Below are positions 6,286 through 37,023 of a stretch of DNA of 45,844 nt, one piece after another (position 1 is the stretch's first letter; the number at the start of each line of letters is the position of its first letter). The position numbers and the translations under genes are program-made. The notes beneath the pieces are model-generated. The model had not been told where the DNA came from. It saw only the letters and a program-made list of their open reading frames with translations, and searched no databases. Origin of the DNA: Alphaproteobacteria bacterium (lineage in GTDB: Bacteria > Pseudomonadota > Alphaproteobacteria > JABAAW01 > JAHZMA01); the NCBI GenBank assembly GCA_022599575.1, contig JAHZMA010000032.1, positions 1 through 45,844 of the forward strand, written 5' to 3'.

Positions 6286-7377
6286 ATGCCTAACATTTTA
6301 CTATTAGCAGGCGATGGTATCGGACCTGAAGTGATGGCGCAAACAAAGCGCGTGCTTGAATGGGCAAGCGATAAAGCATCGCTTAATTTCACTTTTCAAG
6401 ACGCACTGGCAGGCGGTGCTTCTTACGATGCACATGGCACGCCATTAACTGACGAGGTGTTAGAATCTGCGCTTAATGCTGATGCGGTGATATTAGGTGC
6501 GGTGGGTGGCCCTGATTACGATAATGTGGAGCGCCATTTGCGCCCCGAAATTGCCTTATTAAAATTACGCAAAGAACTTGATTTATTTGCTAATTTACGC
6601 CCTGCCATCACCTACCCTTCACTGGCAAATGCTTCTAGTCTCAAGCCAGAATTGGTGAGCGGGCTTGATATTTTAATCGTGCGCGAACTCACCTCTGGCG
6701 TGTATTTTGGCACACCACGTGGCATGGAAACATTGCCCGATGGCACGCAAAGATGCGTGGATACGCAATCTTACACCGAAGCTGAAATCAGCCGTATCGC
6801 CCATGTCGCATTTGAATTGGCAAAACAGCGCAATAATTTGGTGCATTCAGCTGAAAAAGCTAATGTGATGGAAACGGGCGCGTTTTGGCGCAAAATTGTG
6901 ACTGAAACCCACGCAAAGCATTTTTCTGATATTACACTAGAACATATTCTTGCCGATAATTGCGCGATGCAGTTGGTGCGTTGCCCGAAACAATTTGATG
7001 TGTTGGTAACTGATAATCTGTTTGGCGATTTACTATCCGATGTTGCCGCCATGCTAACGGGCTCGCTGGGCATGTTGCCATCAGCATCGCTGGGCGCACC
7101 TGATGTAAATGGCAAACGCCGCGCCATGTATGAACCTGTGCATGGTAGCGCGCCTGATATTGCGGGCAAAAATATCGCCAACCCGATTGCCACCATCGCC
7201 TCGTCCTCTATGATGCTGCGTTATTCATTTAATTGTGAGCAAATTGCCAACAAAATTGACAAGGCAATAGAAACCGTGTTAGATAATGGTTTACGCACAG
7301 CTGATATTGCTGGTGATAATGATAGGTCAATATCAACCACCGATATGGGTGATGCTATTTTGCAGGCGTTGACATAA
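6286..7377 (+). CDS. leuB: 3-isopropylmalate dehydrogenase
   Basis: NAD-dependent oxidative decarboxylase of 3-isopropylmalate, third step of the leucine branch. The family is clear from [15 protein letters not shown] at the N-terminus, GAVGGPDYD, substrate-binding arginines in [31 protein letters not shown], the metal and NAD segments [20 protein letters not shown], and [20 protein letters not shown]. The 363 residues match the family. A GAGG site lies 7 bases before the ATG. It is the last leucine gene here; leuA is not in the window. Confidence 0.98.
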
Positions 7378-17390: not shown

Positions 17391-17406
17391 ATTAGGAGAT
17401 TAAGTT

Positions 17407-20400
17407 ATGCCAAAGTTTGTTTTTTCTATTATCACATTATTAATGTTTTCCGTGTTACTGAGTGGGTGTAGTGCAGCCGCTGAAAGTGAAGATGATACGG
17501 CATCTTCCGATGCCCCCTTTCAATCCCTTGAATCAAGCTATACTGACGCCACTCATACTGATTTACCAGAAACAGTTAATGTTAATAACTTAACCAGCTT
17601 TAAGGATGATGGACGCAATAACACAAGTAATAATGCCTTACCAGCGATTGCTGTGTTGATGACAAAAGATAATGTCAATAAAGACATCACCAATTATAGA
17701 ATCACTGGCTCGGTGGTTGAGTTTAATTATAATAACACTGGTGATTTGACTGCTGATAACTTAAATTTCTATTTTTCTGATAAAAAATATAACGTAAATA
17801 CTAATAATATTGATAATTTTGAGTTAACGATAGGTAAGATTGGCCCTGTTGCCACAAATTATATGGGGTTGGTTAATTGGCAAATGGCTGAGGCAAATGC
17901 AGAAAATAATGAAATAAATGATTATGAAGCTATCGGTTTTGCCATCACTGGTTTTGAAACAGCTACTAATAATATCCCTCTTTTTAACGAAATTGAATTC
18001 AAAGGCAAAGGCAAAGGATATTATTCTGACGGTACTACTCATCGCCATACTAACTTTGATTTTCTAGCATCTTTTACGTCTTATGGTTATCTCTCTAACA
18101 TAAATGGAAACTTAACTGTTACACATGATGGTAGCGATTCTGATCTTAATTTCTACAGCTATTTTTCTAATAGCGCAAATACAAACAAAATGAGTGAAGA
18201 AATTTCAACATCGGAATATGCGCTATCAGGCACGTTTGACGCACGTTTTTATGGCCCCTATGCAAATGAATTGGGTGGTACATTCAGCATGAATAATTAC
18301 AAGGAAAGCTATATTGGCTGGTTTGGCGCCATTCGTGTTGATGGTATTGTTTCGTTGCCGATGATTGATAAAACATTAAACAGTGAAACGCTAACGCTTG
18401 ATGATGTTACCATAAGCGATAACCATCTTTCGCTTACTGAAGTTGCCAGCAATGGCGATGGCATCACTGCTTTTAACATGAAAGCTTTAGCGGTTTATAG
18501 ACATGATGTGAAAGAATCCCCACAGCCACCCGAACAGGATTGGCTAACAACAACAATAACAGCTGATATATTGCAAACAATCAACCTTGAAAGACGGCTT
18601 GGTTCTGTGGCATCATTTACATTTAATAATGAAGGCACTCTTGCAGATGTAACGATTCATGGCATTGAAATAGATGCAAACCGACCTGCTGACCAAGCTG
18701 GTTTTTTTGGCTTTACCGCTAATTATATGGCTTATATCAATTTGAATGTAACGCAAGATGCAGGCAGTTTAACAGAGATAATCAATAATACTGAAGGCTA
18801 TATGATGGCTGGTATTGAAACTAAAACGATTGATTTAAGTGCTACTGATAATCAAGTCACATTTACAGGTAAAGGGAAAGGCACTCATATCTATAATGAT
18901 GAACGGAGTCTTTATACTTTTACAACAAATGCAACAGTTTATTTGGATAGAGAAGAATTAAAAATTGACATTACAAGCGATACTTCCACGAATAGTTCTC
19001 ATAACACTTATAACCTTAATTTATCGGTAACCACTGGCTATGCTGGCAATAACATTACCAGCGATACTATTAGAGCAAGAGATCCTAGAACTTATGCCTC
19101 CTTAACAGGCACGCTTGATGCCCGCTTTTATGGTGGTAACATGTGGGAATTAGGTGGCACATTCGCATTAATAAGTGAAAGTGGTATAACCCATTATTAT
19201 GGTGCATTTGGTGCCCACCGTAACGGCATTAGTGCGTTAACTACGCCTGATTTTACATTCAACAGCGAAACGCTAATACCTACTGTTAGCATAAGCGATA
19301 ACTATCTTTCGCTTACTGATGCTGCCAGTAATGGCGATGGCATCACTGCCTTCAACATGAAAGCTTTAGCGGTTTATAAAAATTCCAAAATAGATTATAC
19401 ACGGGCACCAAAACAAGATTGGGCAACAAGGGCTGATAAAGTACAGACATATAGCCTTGAACGGCGGCTTGGTTCTGTGGCATCACTTATATTTAATAGT
19501 GGCGGCACTGTTGCAGATTTAACAATTGATGGCATTGAAACAAATCCAAGCCAACCTGATAATCAGTCTGAGATACTTGGTTTTACCCCCGCTTATATGA
19601 CTTATATCAACTTGAAAAAAATACCAATTGAAAACATTCTTAATAATAGCGATGATGTCGCAGCCATAACCAATGATATTGATGGCTATATGATTGCTGG
19701 TATTGAAACAAAGAATGATGATATTCCCACCGATAAAAAAGCCGTTCAGTTTAAGGGTAAAGGACATGGTAATTATATCAGGTTTGATGATGCTAATATG
19801 ATTACACATAATTTTTCATATAACCTTACTACAAATGCAACAGTTGATTTTGGTGCTAAAAATGTGAACATCAACCTTAGTAGGAGTGGCACTTCCGAAA
19901 CATATGGTAACATCAGCACAGGCATTATCAGCTTTGATGGCAATGAAATTACCGCTGATGTTACCGCAACAGGTTACGCCTTAACAGGCACACTTGATGC
20001 GCGTTTTTATGGTAGTGGCGCAAAAGAATTTGGAGGTACATTCTTGCTAACAAGTGATAATAGTTATTATTATGGCGCGTTTGGTGGCAAGCAGGGAATC
20101 TCTTCAGTATTTTATGATGAAAGCATCACAACCTTCGTTACAACACCATCAATCGCCGATAATGGTTTGACCTCTTTTAGTGAGGGTGGTAGCGATGATA
20201 ATGTTTTTGCACTAGAAAATGCAGTTCAAATTTTTAATAATATATACATTGGCAAAATTACGGGTGCTGTGGTTGAATATGATTCTTCTCCTAATAAAGG
20301 CGCTTTTAAAGATTCAGGCTTAAAATTATATTTTAGTGATACAATATATGAAATAACTTCAGATGCGGATATTCATGACGACAGCCGTTTTAGCAATTAT

Positions 20401-22797
20401 TATATTAAAATCGATAATGATACAGTCATCGATAGTGGTAGTAAGTTACGTCCTAGCGAATTAACATTAAACACATCAGCTAGACACAAAACTGACGAGC
20501 TTAAGGCAGATTATATGGCATCAGTTGTTTGGAACGGGAATGGTGGTTATGGTTTTGCCACCACTGGTTTTGAGACTATTGGTAATGATATTCCTGGTAT
20601 TGATGAGGCAAAATTTAAAGGCGCAGGCCGTGGGCAATATTCTAGCACTGTAGCGTCGACTGTTTCTACTTATTTTGGCTTCACCGCAAATATTGATTTT
20701 ACCGAACGCACAGCAAGGCTATTTAGTTTTTATACATGTGCACATCCCTACAGAGCTGATAACAGTTGCTATAATAAAAGAGATGATCTTACTTTCCGTG
20801 GCACATTAAGCTATCAGCCAAAAACCAATGCTTTTACTGGCACGATTTCAAGCGGTAATTTAATAGGCACAGCCGATGCACGTTTTTACGGACCTGCGGC
20901 AAATGAGTTTGGCGGCACTTTCGCCATCTATAGCGGTGAGGCAGCCCATGTTGGCTTTTTTATGAGTGGACGGGACTATATCATCGCTGCTGATACAGAA
21001 GAAGTTACAACTGTGACGACCATTACTGACTTCCCTACAGGCATCAATAAAAACAACCTCACTGGTTTTAATGATGCAAACCGCGTTGTTGCAGGCACTG
21101 GCACAACTGGCAATGCCCTAAAAATAACTGATATTGTGCGGGTAACAAGGGATGTTACTACCAAGATAATCACCAGCGATATCATCAAGGGTGCGGTGGT
21201 TGAATTTGACTATAAGAATGATGGTGATTTTGCAGATGATGGCGCAACATTATATTTTATTGATAAAAAATATGATGTTACGGGTACTGGCAATATTAAT
21301 GCAATTCTTTCTGCCACTGCAAGCAGTGGTACCGCTATGCTTTACAGTTTTGCTTTAAGCAGAACGAGCTCCGATTTTTTTGGTTTTACAGCAAATTATA
21401 TGGCGGGGCTAAGCTGGCGTGACGCGAGGAGAAATAGTTTTAGCTATGGTATCACGGGTTTTGAAACCAAGTCTGATGATTTTCCTGGCACTGGTAACGC
21501 CCAGTTTACAGGTCTAGGCTATGGAAAACATTATACTTTGGCAGAAGAGTATTACTTTAATATAACGGCCGATATTGATTTTGGCGACAGCAAATCGGTA
21601 ACTTTAACAAGTTCAAACACATGCGACTATAGATATACGTTTTTTTGCGGTGATACATATAAACGAACATCTTATAATTTCACAGGCACATTAAACTATA
21701 ATACTAACACAAAGGCGCTGACTGGAACGCTTACAACGACTTCAGGATTTAAAGGTGATGCTTACGCCCGTTTTTATGGCACAGGCACTAATGGCGCAAA
21801 AGAAATAGGTGGCACTTTTAATTTTGAGAGAGTCTTTTTGGGCTATTTCGGTGTTTCGCGCTATATAACATCGCATAGTGATATTGCAACTGCCAATGAT
21901 ATTGGCGCGCCAACAACATTTAATCAGGATAATTTAACAGGCTTTAATGATTCAAACCGTGTTACACATGGGACGCCTAAAGAGGATATTGCGCTAAAAG
22001 CCACTGCTGTAGAGATAGTAAAGGATATTAGCAACATCACCATCACCACTCGCAAAATCAGCGATGCTGTGGTTGAGTTTGATTATGCCACCAGCACTAA
22101 TTTTGCCAATACGGGATTGATTTTCTATTTTGCTGATAGAAAATATGAAGTTACCGCTGGTGATGGTCAGCAGGATTATATTACTGCCACGACGATTGAT
22201 AGCGGTAGCGCAGATAATCCAACCGAATTTGGGGTGCAAAGACATGGTAATAGTGTTTTCGGCTACAGAACAAGCCATATGGCATTGGTTTATTGGGAGT
22301 TAGATGAGGCTGGTTATGATAGCAAAGGTTTTGCCATCACTGGTTTTGAAACAACAGATAATGGGGTTGGTGGCACTATTCCTAGCACTGGCATTGCCGA
22401 ATTTAAAGGCAAAGGACAGGGTCAGCATTATTACCGTACCGTTAGTGACGATGTTTACTTTGATGTAACAGCCAATGTTGATTTCAGCACTGGCAATGTA
22501 GCCCTAATCGGTGAAAATACATGTAATTCTAGACAGCTTTCTAATTGCAGAAGCGCAGCCAATCTACGACCTCATCTTGATTTCACTGCCAACATATTAG
22601 AATATGATGTAGGCATGAATAATATCAGCGGCATGATTGAAACCGCGGGCGATGCTGATAATGGTATCGAAAAATTAACAGGCACGGCTGATGCAAGATT
22701 TTACGGACCAAATACAGAAGAATTAGGCGGCACGTTCAGCATGAGTAATAGTGACGCAGGTTATATCGGCTATTTTGGTGCGAAGAAAGAAGAGTAG
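17407..22797 (+). CDS. Giant surface lipoprotein with six tandem TbpB-like beta-barrel modules
   Basis: The 1796-residue protein opens with a lipoprotein signal ending LLSGC (lipid-carrying C21). It then repeats one module six times, each closing with the hallmark of TbpB-like surface lipoproteins: an Ala-Arg-Phe-Tyr-Gly strand, then E-L/F/I-GGTF and a G-x-F-G-type end. The first residue of the DARFYG-type motif is at 278, 571, 864, 1157, 1453 and 1762, a period of 293, 293, 293, 296 and 309. Most modules also carry GFETxxNDIP-like and FKGKGxG segments. Modules 2 and 3 share an opening (GDGITAFNMKALAVY) that differs from modules 1, 4, 5 and 6 (NNLTGFND... AVVEFDY). The only cysteines besides C21 are three close pairs in modules 4-6. 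The gene stands alone with AGGAG at 17394. No Slam exporter or TonB receptor is nearby. Ligand unknown. Confidence 0.85.
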   Translation: MPKFVFSIITLLMFSVLLSGCSAAAESEDDTASSDAPFQSLESSYTDATHTDLPETVNVNNLTSFKDDGRNNTSNNALPAIAVLMTKDNVNKDITNYRITGSVVEFNYNNTGDLTADNLNFYFSDKKYNVNTNNIDNFELTIGKIGPVATNYMGLVNWQMAEANAENNEINDYEAIGFAITGFETATNNIPLFNEIEFKGKGKGYYSDGTTHRHTNFDFLASFTSYGYLSNINGNLTVTHDGSDSDLNFYSYFSNSANTNKMSEEISTSEYALSGTFDARFYGPYANELGGTFSMNNYKESYIGWFGAIRVDGIVSLPMIDKTLNSETLTLDDVTISDNHLSLTEVASNGDGITAFNMKALAVYRHDVKESPQPPEQDWLTTTITADILQTINLERRLGSVASFTFNNEGTLADVTIHGIEIDANRPADQAGFFGFTANYMAYINLNVTQDAGSLTEIINNTEGYMMAGIETKTIDLSATDNQVTFTGKGKGTHIYNDERSLYTFTTNATVYLDREELKIDITSDTSTNSSHNTYNLNLSVTTGYAGNNITSDTIRARDPRTYASLTGTLDARFYGGNMWELGGTFALISESGITHYYGAFGAHRNGISALTTPDFTFNSETLIPTVSISDNYLSLTDAASNGDGITAFNMKALAVYKNSKIDYTRAPKQDWATRADKVQTYSLERRLGSVASLIFNSGGTVADLTIDGIETNPSQPDNQSEILGFTPAYMTYINLKKIPIENILNNSDDVAAITNDIDGYMIAGIETKNDDIPTDKKAVQFKGKGHGNYIRFDDANMITHNFSYNLTTNATVDFGAKNVNINLSRSGTSETYGNISTGIISFDGNEITADVTATGYALTGTLDARFYGSGAKEFGGTFLLTSDNSYYYGAFGGKQGISSVFYDESITTFVTTPSIADNGLTSFSEGGSDDNVFALENAVQIFNNIYIGKITGAVVEYDSSPNKGAFKDSGLKLYFSDTIYEITSDADIHDDSRFSNYYIKIDNDTVIDSGSKLRPSELTLNTSARHKTDELKADYMASVVWNGNGGYGFATTGFETIGNDIPGIDEAKFKGAGRGQYSSTVASTVSTYFGFTANIDFTERTARLFSFYTCAHPYRADNSCYNKRDDLTFRGTLSYQPKTNAFTGTISSGNLIGTADARFYGPAANEFGGTFAIYSGEAAHVGFFMSGRDYIIAADTEEVTTVTTITDFPTGINKNNLTGFNDANRVVAGTGTTGNALKITDIVRVTRDVTTKIITSDIIKGAVVEFDYKNDGDFADDGATLYFIDKKYDVTGTGNINAILSATASSGTAMLYSFALSRTSSDFFGFTANYMAGLSWRDARRNSFSYGITGFETKSDDFPGTGNAQFTGLGYGKHYTLAEEYYFNITADIDFGDSKSVTLTSSNTCDYRYTFFCGDTYKRTSYNFTGTLNYNTNTKALTGTLTTTSGFKGDAYARFYGTGTNGAKEIGGTFNFERVFLGYFGVSRYITSHSDIATANDIGAPTTFNQDNLTGFNDSNRVTHGTPKEDIALKATAVEIVKDISNITITTRKISDAVVEFDYATSTNFANTGLIFYFADRKYEVTAGDGQQDYITATTIDSGSADNPTEFGVQRHGNSVFGYRTSHMALVYWELDEAGYDSKGFAITGFETTDNGVGGTIPSTGIAEFKGKGQGQHYYRTVSDDVYFDVTANVDFSTGNVALIGENTCNSRQLSNCRSAANLRPHLDFTANILEYDVGMNNISGMIETAGDADNGIEKLTGTADARFYGPNTEELGGTFSMSNSDAGYIGYFGAKKEE

Positions 22798-23940: not shown

Positions 23941-25083
23941 TTAGCTAGAGACTGTATAAATCCGATTGCGTTTACTTTCGGCACGAAAAGCCCGCCACAG
24001 CGATAATGAAGATGGTTTTTTATATGTCTGTTGCCGCCTTACCTGATGCCCGATTTTGAATAACAGCGAGATTTGCAAAAATATGCCAATCCATGCACGC
24101 CATAGGCTACCTTCAGGGTCCCAAATATGCGTCATTTCCGCACCCGCGCCGTTAAATTCAATAATCTTAAAATTCTTACCTTGCTTGAAATCATCTAGCG
24201 AACGGCATTTAATATCAATCCTACCATAATAAAAATTAGGAATATCTTGCGTTAATCGATCAATTTGCGCCACCAGCGCATCATCAATCAGCGCTTCACC
24301 ATCACGAAATATCGTACCCGATGTATGGCTGCCCACCGCTGTAGCACGAAAATAACTATCTTCTGGCAAAACATCATCTAGCATTTTGCCATAGCGCATT
24401 TCACAGCGCGATAATAACCGTTTTGTTGCCGCATTTTTATGCAATAATTCGCGAATGGTTTGGGTGCCATCGCCACTTAATAGAAACGGATATTTTAATG
24501 TGAGTGATGGCACTCTAAACGCACCCGTTTCAGGGGAGCGGACATAAAAAATACCAATTTCTTCAGGATAATCAGCAAATTCGCAGATTAAGAAATATTC
24601 ATCATGCGGATAATCGCGGGCATAATCTATCAGCATATCCATATCGGTCAGCAATTTAACGCCGAACCCCTTACAGCCAATATCTGGCTTGGCAATCATC
24701 GGGAATTTCAGTCCCGTATCTTTCACCGCTTGTTGCAATTTTTGTTTATTTAAGCCATCATTATGCAATCGGCAAAATATTGGCACATATTGTTTGAGTG
24801 GCGTTGTCTGAAATTGTTCGTAAATAGATGATTTTGTTTCATTCACCATACCGCCCAAACTGATGCTAGGATTCACCAAGCAAGGCAGAGTCCAGCTACG
24901 GTAGTAAATTGCCAAACACACCCACCAGAAAAAACCGGGCAGATAAAACAACCACGCAGGAAGCGATTCAGCAGGGCTTAACCTTATATTTTTAGGCAAA
25001 GGCGGGAAGCAAGGTTGGAAACCTTCTAGCGCACTTTTCTCAATAATTGGGGAAAGCCATAATTTTTTATTTATATTACCCAT
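23941..25083 (-). CDS. ATP-grasp fold protein of unknown substrate
   Basis: 380-residue protein. A short hydrophobic stretch (residues about 43-62) could be a membrane segment. The ATP-grasp region runs from about residue 130 to 325: FPMIAKPDIGCKGFGVKLL supplies the lysine and glycine-rich loop, EYFLICEFADYPEEIGIFYV the adenine-binding strand, and NFKIIEFNGAGAEMTHIWDP the metal-binding Glu and Asn. This is the D-Ala-D-Ala ligase/carboxylate-amine ligase style of fold, but it is not one of the named ligases. It is the first gene of the group with GST and rhodanese and is divergent from DUF1489 across 44 bases. The link with a GST suggests a glutathione- or peptide-like substrate, which is inference. 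Confidence 0.75.
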   Translation of the reverse strand: MGNINKKLWLSPIIEKSALEGFQPCFPPLPKNIRLSPAESLPAWLFYLPGFFWWVCLAIYYRSWTLPCLVNPSISLGGMVNETKSSIYEQFQTTPLKQYVPIFCRLHNDGLNKQKLQQAVKDTGLKFPMIAKPDIGCKGFGVKLLTDMDMLIDYARDYPHDEYFLICEFADYPEEIGIFYVRSPETGAFRVPSLTLKYPFLLSGDGTQTIRELLHKNAATKRLLSRCEMRYGKMLDDVLPEDSYFRATAVGSHTSGTIFRDGEALIDDALVAQIDRLTQDIPNFYYGRIDIKCRSLDDFKQGKNFKIIEFNGAGAEMTHIWDPEGSLWRAWIGIFLQISLLFKIGHQVRRQQTYKKPSSLSLWRAFRAESKRNRIYTVSS

Positions 25084-33239: not shown

Positions 33240-33893
33240 CTATGCCAAATCCTTTATATCAAAAATTTTGCCATTAGCGGCTTTAGCATCAGTAATGTCA
33301 TGGGTAACTAAAATCGCGGGCAGTTGTTGTTCATGAATATGACGAAACACAAAATCGCGAATATTATCGCGTAACACCGCATCTAATTTTGAGAAAGGTT
33401 CGTCTAGCAACAAGCATTGTGGCGCAGCAAGCAAGGCACGCAATAAGGCGATGCGCGCCTTTTGTCCGCCAGAAAGGCTGGCAGTATCGGCTTGTTCAAA
33501 ACCCGCCATATCGCAATCTTGTAATGCCGCGCTAATTTTCTGTTTTCGTTGCTCGCGTTTCATTTCTGGCGGCAAGGCAAAGGCGAGGTTCTCGCCAACA
33601 TTAAGATGCGGAAATAGTAACGCATCTTGAAACAACATGCCCACACCACGCTGATGCGCTGGTAAATCATTCAGCACACGGCCATTCAACCGCACGATGC
33701 CCGATGTAGTGAAAGGCGGTTGCAAAAAACCCGCAATATAGCCCAGCAATGATGATTTGCCCGCACCCGATTCCCCCATAAAGCTGATAATCTCACCCTT
33801 ATGAAGTTGGTATGAAAAATCACGCATTAAAGGGCAAGCGGCACGGTTTTTTTGCGCTTCAAGCTTTATTGAAATATTCTCAAGTTCTAACAT
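33240..33893 (-). CDS. ABC transporter ATP-binding protein, YnjD type
   Basis: 217-residue ATPase with Walker A GESGAGKSSLLGYIAGF, Q-loop MLFQDALLFPHLNVGENLAF, signature LSGGQKARIALLRALL, Walker B CLLLDEPFSKLD and the switch histidine in LVTHD. ATG 33893 gives the conserved MLELENISIKL opening; upstream in-frame sequence lies in the permease gene and is Cys/His-rich nonsense. The gene overlaps the permease end by 14 bases. With the fused permease and binding protein it forms a three-gene importer of the YnjBCD type, whose substrate is often guessed to be thiamine-like but is not proven. Confidence 0.93.
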   Translation of the reverse strand: MLELENISIKLEAQKNRAACPLMRDFSYQLHKGEIISFMGESGAGKSSLLGYIAGFLQPPFTTSGIVRLNGRVLNDLPAHQRGVGMLFQDALLFPHLNVGENLAFALPPEMKREQRKQKISAALQDCDMAGFEQADTASLSGGQKARIALLRALLAAPQCLLLDEPFSKLDAVLRDNIRDFVFRHIHEQQLPAILVTHDITDAKAANGKIFDIKDLA

Positions 33894-35604
33894 CCATATC
33901 TTTCCGATTTTTATATAACAGACGTGGCACAAATAAAGCAATGGTAAAAAATAAAAGCGGCAATGATGCCTGCACCAAACCATACACACTCACAATTCTG
34001 CGGTTGCCCCCTGATGATAACACAATCGCCTCGCTGGTGAGGGTTGTTACATTGCCACTGCCTAGCAAATAGGTGGGCAAATACAATGCCACCGATACCG
34101 CCACGCCCAAGCTGAGTGCGGTCAGCAATGCTGATAATTGCAATGGTAAAATCAACCGAAATAATGTGTATGATGGGCTTTTGCCAATGCTAGCGGCAAT
34201 CTGGCGATATTGATTATTCAATTTATGCCATGGTCCTGCCAGCGATAGATAAATATAAGGCAAGACAAAAATCACATGCCCAAAAATGACCATCGGCAAT
34301 GTGCCAATTAAACCTAGCTTAATCAATAACACCTGCACCCCAAATAAGAATGAAATTTGCGGCATTAATAGCGGGCAATATAAAATCCAAATACCCGTTT
34401 TACCGGGTCTAAAGCCGTAACGTTTTTCAGCTTCTAAACAGCCAATCGCCAAAATAAGCGAGATAAAAGTAGCACAAAGCGCGATAAACAAAGTCAGCAA
34501 AAAGGCATGGCGCATCAGAAGCAAAGCACGAACCCAATATTTGAGCGAGACATTATCAGGTATCAATTTAGGGAATTGCCATAACCCACTAAAAGACCAT
34601 ATCACTAACATAAGAATCGCGCCGATGGTAAGGGCAATCAAGGCGATAATAATAGTATTGATGCCATATTGTGGCAGGCGCGAATTAAAGATATTGCCAC
34701 GCCCACCACAGCAAATAAAATAGCGATAGGCAGGCGCGAAAATTTTGCCTATCAGCCACCAAAAACCGATACTGGCAACGGTGATGATAAACATCCAAAG
34801 GGCGGCGGCTGACGCGAAAAATTGCATCTCTAAATTAGGGTCACGCGCCCAGTTTAAGATGGTTACCCCTAACAGCATTGGCGCATTGGGGGCTAATATC
34901 AGCGCCATATCAACAATCGCCAACGAAAATGCCAGCACCACAAACAACGGTAAGCGCATTTGTGAATAGAGTTGCGGATACACCAATTTGCTAAAACATG
35001 CAACAGGATGATAGCCTAGCACCTGCCCATTTTGTAATAATTTACGGTAATTGATGCGTTCCAATGACGATAATGAGAGCAAGAATAAAAACGGCACTTC
35101 TTTAATCACCAGCCCTACTATTAGCAATATGCCGTAAGGGTCTGGGTTACTGTTCCAAAAGGGTGGTTCTTGCCAGCCGAATAATGGCGCTAACAACCGT
35201 GCGACAATGCCGCTTGGTGCGACTAAAAAAATCAACCCCACCGCTAATGTGATATGCGGGGTTGCCAGAATTGGTGATAAAAAAGATTGGCAATAGCGGA
35301 ACAGCCTTGTTCCGTGCGCTAATGCCAAAAAGCTGATATTCAGCCCCCATGAGATGATGGTAGCGGTAAAACCAATGATAAGCGTAAACACAATGCTGTT
35401 GCCGATATTGGGCATATCAAAAAACGCCCATAGCGGTAAGCGCGATTGCAATGATTCAGGCAAGGCAATCACCATTGAAAAACCTAGCGCACCAGACAAA
35501 ACAGAAGCAAGCCCGATAAAAATCGGTGCGAGAAAAATCATAATAGTGATGAGCGGAATAAAGAATATGGGGTCTTTAAACTTTTTCATCACCACTGGTT
35601 TCAT
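33880..35604 (-). CDS. ABC transporter permease, fused two-domain YnjC type
   Basis: 574-residue inner-membrane protein with about twelve hydrophobic segments in two halves, each with an ABC permease loop: GQVLGYHPVACFSKLVYPQL in the first and ASIGKSPSYTLFRLILPLQ in the second. This double-length permease is typical of YnjC and ThiP/FbpB-like iron or thiamine systems. ATG 35604 is taken; ATG 35589 (MKKFKDPIFF) is equally possible. It follows the binding-protein gene by 21 bases and overlaps the ATPase gene. Confidence 0.92.
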   Translation of the reverse strand: MKPVVMKKFKDPIFFIPLITIMIFLAPIFIGLASVLSGALGFSMVIALPESLQSRLPLWAFFDMPNIGNSIVFTLIIGFTATIISWGLNISFLALAHGTRLFRYCQSFLSPILATPHITLAVGLIFLVAPSGIVARLLAPLFGWQEPPFWNSNPDPYGILLIVGLVIKEVPFLFLLSLSSLERINYRKLLQNGQVLGYHPVACFSKLVYPQLYSQMRLPLFVVLAFSLAIVDMALILAPNAPMLLGVTILNWARDPNLEMQFFASAAALWMFIITVASIGFWWLIGKIFAPAYRYFICCGGRGNIFNSRLPQYGINTIIIALIALTIGAILMLVIWSFSGLWQFPKLIPDNVSLKYWVRALLLMRHAFLLTLFIALCATFISLILAIGCLEAEKRYGFRPGKTGIWILYCPLLMPQISFLFGVQVLLIKLGLIGTLPMVIFGHVIFVLPYIYLSLAGPWHKLNNQYRQIAASIGKSPSYTLFRLILPLQLSALLTALSLGVAVSVALYLPTYLLGSGNVTTLTSEAIVLSSGGNRRIVSVYGLVQASLPLLFFTIALFVPRLLYKNRKDMDVRT

Positions 35605-35625
35605 GATTGTATGTTGCTGTCCCCA

Positions 35626-36909
35626 TTACTGGCCGTAACGTTTTTGCCACTCAGTTTTTAGATATTCGCTCCATGCAGGATGCGGTTCAGGCAATACTGT
35701 TCCCAATTCTTCAGCTGATAGGGTGGCAACGCCAATTGGCAAAGCATCAAATTTTGCTTGCCCTTCATCATCAAGTGCGGTCACATCAAGCACAGTTGGG
35801 TCGCCCCAAATATCGGGGTTTGCCTTGCGGCTTTGCGCCTCTATTGAAAGCATGAAATCAGCAACAATCATCGCGCCTTCAGGATTGGCAGCATTATAAG
35901 GAATCGCTAGAAAATGCGTATTGCCAATCGTGCCATCATCAAGCACGAATGAGCGAATCGTATCAGGCAATTCGCCACGTGCAATTCCCGAAGAAGCACC
36001 ATTGGGATTAAAAGCGAACGCATAATAAAGCTCGCCATCGGCTAGCAACTGGCTTTGTGCTGGCCAATCTTTTGGGAAATTCCTACCATTTTGCCATAAA
36101 TTCGGGTGCAACGCATCTAAAAACGTCCATAAGGGCGCAGTAATTTCAACGGCATCAGTGGCGGGCGGTTTTGCCAAAATATCTTTATCAGCCACCAATT
36201 CCACCAATGCTTGCTTTAAGAATGTAACGCCCAGAAAATCAGGCGGTGCAGGATAGCTGAAACGCCCTGGTTGCGCGCTGGCTACTTCCAAAAAATCTTG
36301 CATTTTTTCAGGCAACATATCGGTGCGCGCGCTATCATAGAAAAATACTAGCTGTGCCATGCCCCAAGGTGATTCATAACCATCAGTTGGCACCGTAAAA
36401 TCAAGAATTGTGGTTGGTTTGCCAATAATATCAACATTATCAAAATTCGGTAAATTTTGCGTGAATGGACCATAAAGCAATCCTGCTTGCTTCAATGTGC
36501 GAAAATTTTCACCATTAATCCAAATTAAATCAATCGCGCCATCACTATCATTGCCAGCGGCTTTATCGGCAACCACTAATTGCACCGAATCGGCTGTGTT
36601 GCTGATTTTAACATGTTCAACTGCTACATTATAGGTATCGTTGGTTTGCTTACCAGCCCAAGCAATATAATCATTGATAGTATCTCCACCGCCCCAAGCA
36701 TGAAATTTGACAACCGTATCACAGGCTTTTGCGCTAATTTCTGCCCATGCCTCACCTTTTTCAGCCGCAACAGGCGCGCAATGACTATCTGCTACTTTCG
36801 CATTATCAGGGTTACCAGAACCAGAGCCAAAGCCAAAATATAAAACACTTGCAATACCAACAAGGGCAATGACAATCATGTTTCTTCTGTTGCTTAAAAT
36901 ATTTTTCAT
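35626..36909 (-). CDS. ABC transporter substrate-binding protein, YnjB type
   Basis: 427-residue periplasmic binding protein. ATG 36909 follows GGAGATAATCAA and gives a basic start, a hydrophobic segment (NMIVIALVGIASVLYFGF) and then the mature part. The cleavage site is not obvious and it may stay membrane-anchored. Family markers are FHAWGGGDTINDYIAW at the start of the mature chain, DLIWINGENFRTLKQAGLLY, GYESPWGMAQLVFFYDSAR and PGRFSYPAPPDFLGVTFLKQ, which fit YnjB. First gene of the importer operon, divergent from SRP RNA. I saw no TPP aptamer motif in the 114-base gap, so thiamine control is not supported. Confidence 0.92.
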   Translation of the reverse strand: MKNILSNRRNMIVIALVGIASVLYFGFGSGSGNPDNAKVADSHCAPVAAEKGEAWAEISAKACDTVVKFHAWGGGDTINDYIAWAGKQTNDTYNVAVEHVKISNTADSVQLVVADKAAGNDSDGAIDLIWINGENFRTLKQAGLLYGPFTQNLPNFDNVDIIGKPTTILDFTVPTDGYESPWGMAQLVFFYDSARTDMLPEKMQDFLEVASAQPGRFSYPAPPDFLGVTFLKQALVELVADKDILAKPPATDAVEITAPLWTFLDALHPNLWQNGRNFPKDWPAQSQLLADGELYYAFAFNPNGASSGIARGELPDTIRSFVLDDGTIGNTHFLAIPYNAANPEGAMIVADFMLSIEAQSRKANPDIWGDPTVLDVTALDDEGQAKFDALPIGVATLSAEELGTVLPEPHPAWSEYLKTEWQKRYGQ

Positions 36910-37023
36910 TTGATTATCTCCTACAATTAATATCGTTATGGTATATTTTCTGCTATGATAATTTTTTTTAAAAGTTTTTTCAAGAAAGATTCGCATCTTG
37001 CCACGAATTTGCTTATATTTACA

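Follow-up and report, generated by a model that had tools for sequence, protein, structure and literature searches.

A six-lobe TbpB-like lipoprotein and its paralogous lobe family in an alphaproteobacterial genome

The window, i.e., the whole stretch of 45,844 bp of alphaproteobacterial DNA that was analysed, contained an open and intact ORF (17407-22797, + strand) that starts with ATG and encodes a protein of 1796 aa. An earlier note on this DNA had described a 1796-residue chain with a lipobox, and this chain was recovered as such, with the lipobox (LLSGC, Cys21) called by a pattern match rather than by a dedicated signal-peptide predictor. The gene and its parts were as follows.

17394..17406, + strand: ribosome-binding site AGGAGA and spacer ahead of the ATG (read directly)
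17407..22797, + strand: whole gene of the six-lobe TbpB-like lipoprotein (predicted mature mass, 193 kDa; pI 4.6)
17407..17469, + strand: predicted lipoprotein signal peptide MPKFVFSIITLLMFSVLLSG with the lipobox LLSGC and Cys21 (pattern match)
17539..18348, + strand: lobe 1, handle and barrel, no cysteines (module HMM; PF01298 in the C-terminal part, 18163-18336)
18379..19233, + strand: lobe 2, closest to lobe 3, no cysteines (PF01298, module HMM, and tree)
19288..20097, + strand: lobe 3, with the best PF01298 match of the genome (E 1.3e-11 at 19726-20094)
20128..20988, + strand: lobe 4, with the barrel-loop cysteine pair 1111/1121 (PF01298 and module HMM)
21007..21870, + strand: lobe 5, with the cysteine pair 1406/1414 (module HMM)
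21901..22791, + strand: lobe 6, C-terminal, with the cysteine pair 1706/1714 (AlphaFold model and tree)

The ARFYG motif recurred at residues 279, 572, 865, 1158, 1454, and 1763, and the spacings between these positions (293, 293, 293, 296, and 309 residues) were exactly those reported for the hallmark motifs in the earlier note. The protein matched Pfam PF01298 (TbpB_B_D) with an E-value of 4.9e-36 and a score of 124.5 bits (cut-off, 26), including six stretches that each passed independently, and it scored 54.6 bits over five stretches against NCBIfam slam_lipo, which is under the equivalog cut-off of 80. A sequence profile of the six lobes also matched LbpB/TbpB among PDB chains (best E, 4.6e-5); profile searches thus confirmed the family of the repeat. 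Lobes 1-5 shared 27-41% identity with lobe 6, and no close DNA repeats were detected inside the ORF by Tandem Repeats Finder or blastn; therefore, the repeat is old, and a tandem-repeat or assembly artefact was ruled out for this ORF. Lobes 2 and 3 are an internal duplication. Besides the anchor Cys21, the protein had cysteines in lobes 4, 5, and 6 only, one pair per lobe with 8 to 10 residues from one member to the other, and no N-terminal Pro-Thr or PTD repeats were present in the translation. Exactly two cysteines were found in 94 of the 113 lobes of the genome that were aligned.

Structure prediction, which the earlier note had proposed for each module, was performed for lobe 6 as a single lobe, with an alignment input made of lobes 1-5, and the rest of the chain was assessed by sequence only. 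The AlphaFold model (pLDDT 70.1 and pTM 0.75; mostly 69-92 in the last eight strands) contained handle strands in its N-terminal half and an 8-stranded barrel at lobe residues 165-296. Its top match by VIA-align was the TbpB C-lobe 5kkx (Z 16.9, rmsd 4.0, 210 residues), which ranked ahead of TbpB chains, fHbp, hemophilins, and LbpB, and Foldseek agreed on a TbpB-type fold, with HpuA among its matches. Judging from this model, from these structural matches, and from the PDB matches of the six-lobe profile, each repeat is a complete TbpB-type lobe, composed of a handle and an 8-stranded barrel, and not a bare barrel. Hence, the claim that one chain with a predicted lipid anchor carries six TbpB-like barrels was confirmed both in family (six PF01298 stretches) and in fold (lobe 6 model); the barrel that had been named as the repeat unit is present, but the unit is larger and includes the handle. 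A two-lobe AlphaFold model (pLDDT 34.5) was too poor for inter-lobe geometry, shape, or fibre length.

TbpB works with a TonB-dependent receptor. A chain of such lobes could be a scavenger of the TbpB/LbpB/HpuA type that hands a host iron or haem protein to a receptor of this kind, with the extra lobes providing avidity, and the lobe family and fold are indeed common to TbpB, LbpB, HpuA, and hemophilin. However, no TonB-receptor Plug domain (PF07715) was found in the source genome (designated G000, 94.6% complete), although the E. coli and Caulobacter controls were positive, and no iron or receptor gene lay beside the window gene among the window proteins scanned, the neighbours being housekeeping genes. 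A set of about 30 paralogues in the same genome would also be poorly explained by a single iron system. The missing Plug domain and the housekeeping neighbours suggest that TbpB-style iron delivery is unlikely, and a scavenger of this type appears highly improbable. The earlier statement that the window holds no Slam exporter, TonB receptor, or iron gene was true for the proteins scanned, but a divergent Slam homologue was located elsewhere in the genome, on contig C81.

Elsewhere in the window, an ABC transporter (33240-36996, - strand) was composed of a substrate-binding protein of the PRK11622 subfamily, a 574-aa permease frame, and an ATPase. The permease frame had no Pfam match and, as listed, overlapped the ATPase frame by about 110 bases. 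The designation of this locus as a ferric ABC transporter was unsupported, given this subfamily assignment of its binding protein. A 380-aa ORF (23941-25083, - strand) had no Pfam or NCBIfam match.

The source genome (2.31 Mb in 127 contigs, with 5.2% contamination) contained 115 PF01298 matches at E ≤ 1. The module HMM detected approximately 129 lobes in 28 ORFs, as well as three on contigs C81 and C103, giving a total of approximately 132 lobes in about 30 genes, with 1 to 11 or more lobes per chain. The 28 ORFs comprised 127 kb, or 5.5% of the assembly. The longest chain (3302 aa, 11 lobes) was located on contig C123 and was truncated by the contig edge. Nearly all sibling genes with complete 5' ends encoded a lipobox-type signal peptide, and most were preceded by GGAGA-type ribosome-binding sites. 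Immediately downstream of the 11-lobe gene were genes encoding Cas9 (HNH_4, RuvC_III, and Cas9_a) and Cas1 (L019 on C123, 10098-14770, + strand). Contig C92 carried genes for a sigma-70-family factor with an ECF-like layout (Sigma70_r2 and r4_2) and an EF-hand protein (L015, 6810-7493 and 6164-6835, respectively, both + strand), which separate the first array gene from the four that follow; the sigma-70-family factor is a possible regulator of this cluster.

The expansion could also have been inflated by assembly, with mixed strains contributing several versions of the same arrays. Contamination of 5.2% and the several arrays that run into contig edges are in line with such inflation, and so are two cases of sharing between contigs: C7 and C123 had the same first 501 bp at 99.2% identity (L034 and L019, positions 1-501), and C45 (L024, 4053-7382) had 3.4 kb in common with C60 (L028, 1-3357) at 87.8%. 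These represent either assembly branch points or strain versions within arrays. On the other hand, the window gene was internal to its contig and flanked by further sequence on either side, and C92 held five arrays together with a complete 16S gene on one contig; this 16S gene was alphaproteobacterial, its 87% identity to Thalassospira marina allowing placement only to Alphaproteobacteria. In addition, approximately 114 lobes remained after C7, C45, C34, and C53, which are possible strain-duplicate contigs, were dropped. The chance that the expansion is a product of assembly is therefore considered very remote.

The dN/dS values of close lobe pairs were approximately 0.3-0.8, which suggests that the lobe genes are maintained. 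The closest pairs included neighbours within a gene and matching lobes of neighbouring genes, and this pattern indicates that lobe duplication and gene duplication gave rise to the family. In some close pairs, similarity was far higher over one half of the lobe, and uneven divergence was supported by a permutation test (p < 0.01) in 34 of 100 pairs when all sites were used, but in only 5 of 100 at synonymous sites. Recombination between lobes was thus probable yet not proven, the synonymous signal being modest. The main rival to multivalent binding or adhesion draws on the same data, namely, that the family forms a variable surface coat or shield that serves for antigen change or for blocking phages or predators, without a specific ligand for each lobe. 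The 30 or so paralogues, the high turnover of lobes, and the mosaic divergence between them would all agree with a coat, as would the alignment of 113 lobes, in which the barrel strands were most conserved (entropy, 1.90) and the barrel loops least conserved (2.66). However, the dN/dS values of close pairs were well below 1, and the upstream regions of the lobe genes contained ordinary short homopolymers only, with no clear phase-variation switch. A variable coat was accordingly judged to be an unlikely explanation, although a serious one.

To our knowledge, Slam substrates of known structure contain one or two lobes. The Pfam SlipAM model (PF04575) had no match in G000, which on its own would have pointed to a genome lacking a Slam, but a profile built from 16 Slams of the class matched contig C81 at 6899-7195 (E 3.9e-8); the genome search for a Slam (DUF560) gene suggested in the earlier note thus yielded a candidate. 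The corresponding ORF (L014, 6836-8011) encodes 391 aa from a TTG start; its product carries a signal peptide, is TPR-like in the N-terminal part, and ends in an aromatic C terminus. It aligned to the Slam profile by hhalign over 342 columns covering the TPR and barrel regions (prob 97, E 5e-11) and retained the conserved Slam C-terminal NI-FYD stretch, whereas TPR_Slam remained under the cut-off (E 0.046). Its start lies 13 bp past the gene of a 305-aa single-lobe lipoprotein, and a Slam gene next to a lobe substrate was also found in several class genomes. By these sequence criteria, the C81 ORF is a divergent Slam homologue that is not adjacent to the window gene; it is similar to Slam/T11SS proteins (DUF560, SlipAM) in its TPR and barrel alignment, its NI-FYD stretch, and its position beside a lobe lipoprotein, but at 391 aa it is too divergent for PF04575.

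Neisseria Slam1 displays TbpB, LbpB, and fHbp, some of which are encoded away from slam1 (PMC5449769), and translocates unfolded TbpB with the aid of Skp (PMC9090332). By analogy with Slam1, which serves several, partly unlinked substrates, export of many unlinked chains by the single C81 Slam is plausible. The C-terminal barrel has been proposed to direct cargo to the T11SS (PMC12282271). In the tree, the nearest neighbour of lobe 6 was the last lobe of another gene, and last lobes clustered on the barrel tree (17 label changes versus a mean of 23.8 and a minimum of 20 after shuffling; 0 of 200 shuffles as low), with first lobes clustering less clearly. This cluster fits what is expected if the final barrel bears the Slam signal, and common descent would do the same. 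Alternatively, the chain might be a large spacer or scaffold of the cell envelope that remains periplasmic and is tethered to the outer membrane from inside. In line with this, a lipobox by itself is no proof that a protein reaches the surface, and only one Slam homologue was found, which is divergent and not linked to the window gene. However, where the location of TbpB-family lobes is known, they are Slam/T11SS cargo that is either secreted or displayed on the surface (PMC5449769, PMC12282271), and the genome does contain a Slam homologue with an adjoining single-lobe lipoprotein. A periplasmic chain was consequently regarded as quite improbable.

Relatives were sought in overlapping samples of 385 genomes of the class and 398 of the phylum. 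The full-lobe profile matched only three other class genomes, at partial lengths and chiefly in the barrel, and other sampled genomes with a match contained at most 18 lobe candidates. Five genomes of the same order had no lobe match at E ≤ 1e-6, and a tblastn search of plasmids returned two weak matches to the barrel (Sinorhizobium and Salipiger). Scans of genome contigs and viral contigs with the whole protein and the six-lobe alignment confirmed no relatives; as the pattern method detects close relatives only, this absence is weak evidence. No close relative of the source lineage turned up among the sampled collections. One genome of the same phylum but another class (G447) had 11 candidate barrels. 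On its contig C60 (L106, 11091-16355, + strand), a lipoprotein-like chain of 1754 aa carried at least four TbpB-like barrels with long predicted coiled coils, rich in Ala, Glu, and Lys, between them, and genes with one, two, and three lobes adjoined it.

Slam/T11SS cargo is mainly known from animal-associated bacteria, in which the proteins have one or two lobes. TbpB and LbpB of Neisseria and other Gram-negative pathogens resemble the window protein in having tandem lobes of a handle and an 8-stranded barrel on one lipid anchor, but they have two lobes instead of six, and the receptor partner of TbpB has no counterpart found in G000. fHbp, HpuA, and hemophilin/HphA have the same handle-barrel lobe (Z of about 13-14 to the model for fHbp and the hemophilins; HpuA by Foldseek), but only one, with known ligands (factor H, haemoglobin, and haem). 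Surface proteins of Sphingomonas and Psychrobacter contain two to three handle-barrel copies and are predicted T11SS cargo (PMC12282271). They thus share with the window protein several handle-barrel pairs per predicted Slam/T11SS cargo chain, but they have Pro-Thr or PTD repeats and long disordered loops (PMC12282271), whereas in G000 short linkers connect 6 to 11 or more directly repeated lobes per chain, and the family comprises about 30 genes. The G447 chain is likewise lipoprotein-like with several TbpB barrels, but predicted coiled coils separate its lobes, which stand in direct tandem in the window protein. The view in the earlier note that such lipoproteins normally have one or two barrels was therefore nearly right, except for the two to three copies published (PMC12282271) and the four or more in G447. 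Two- and three-copy handle-barrel proteins are already known, and the window protein is an extreme case; 6 to 11 or more direct-tandem lobes, and about 130 per genome, lie well beyond the sampled genomes and the literature searched.

The window protein is still most naturally read as a putative multivalent surface chain. The six-lobe chain would cross the inner membrane by Sec, be lipidated at Cys21, and then reach the outer membrane via Lol, where it would be passed unfolded through the divergent C81 Slam, with the C-terminal lobe as the recognised unit. Once outside, the lobes would fold separately, and the chain would project as a multivalent binder. The approximately 30 paralogous chains (about 130 lobes) would have arisen by lobe and gene duplication, probably with recombination between lobes, and may serve as a diversified set of surface binders or adhesins. 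Taken together, a Slam-exported, lipid-anchored six-lobe chain that is one of about 30, and that belongs to a diversified repertoire of multivalent surface binders or adhesins and not to a transferrin-iron receptor, is the explanation that was considered probable. Export via the C81 Slam, surface exposure, multivalent binding, and diversification as a purpose are the parts of this explanation that we infer. Several points speak against it: the C81 Slam has no SlipAM match, its TPR_Slam score is below the cut-off, and its tie to the unlinked multi-lobe genes is conjectural; an unfolded chain of 6 to 11 lobes would be a demanding load for a Slam; and the assembly consists of 127 contigs with 5.2% contamination and arrays at contig edges.

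G000 provides a natural test of the maximum chain length that a Slam can translocate, and its family can be used to test the last barrel as a candidate export signal. It also allows the ligands of the lobes to be asked about where iron piracy is unlikely, and it offers a way to study the assembly and reshuffling of a large bacterial surface repertoire. More tentatively, the TbpB lobe may act here as a general building block, in the manner of Ig-like or cadherin-like repeats, with about 130 recombining lobes in about 30 lipid-anchored chains, all of them served by one divergent Slam. If true, the binding surfaces would form a modular repertoire that has nothing to do with iron.
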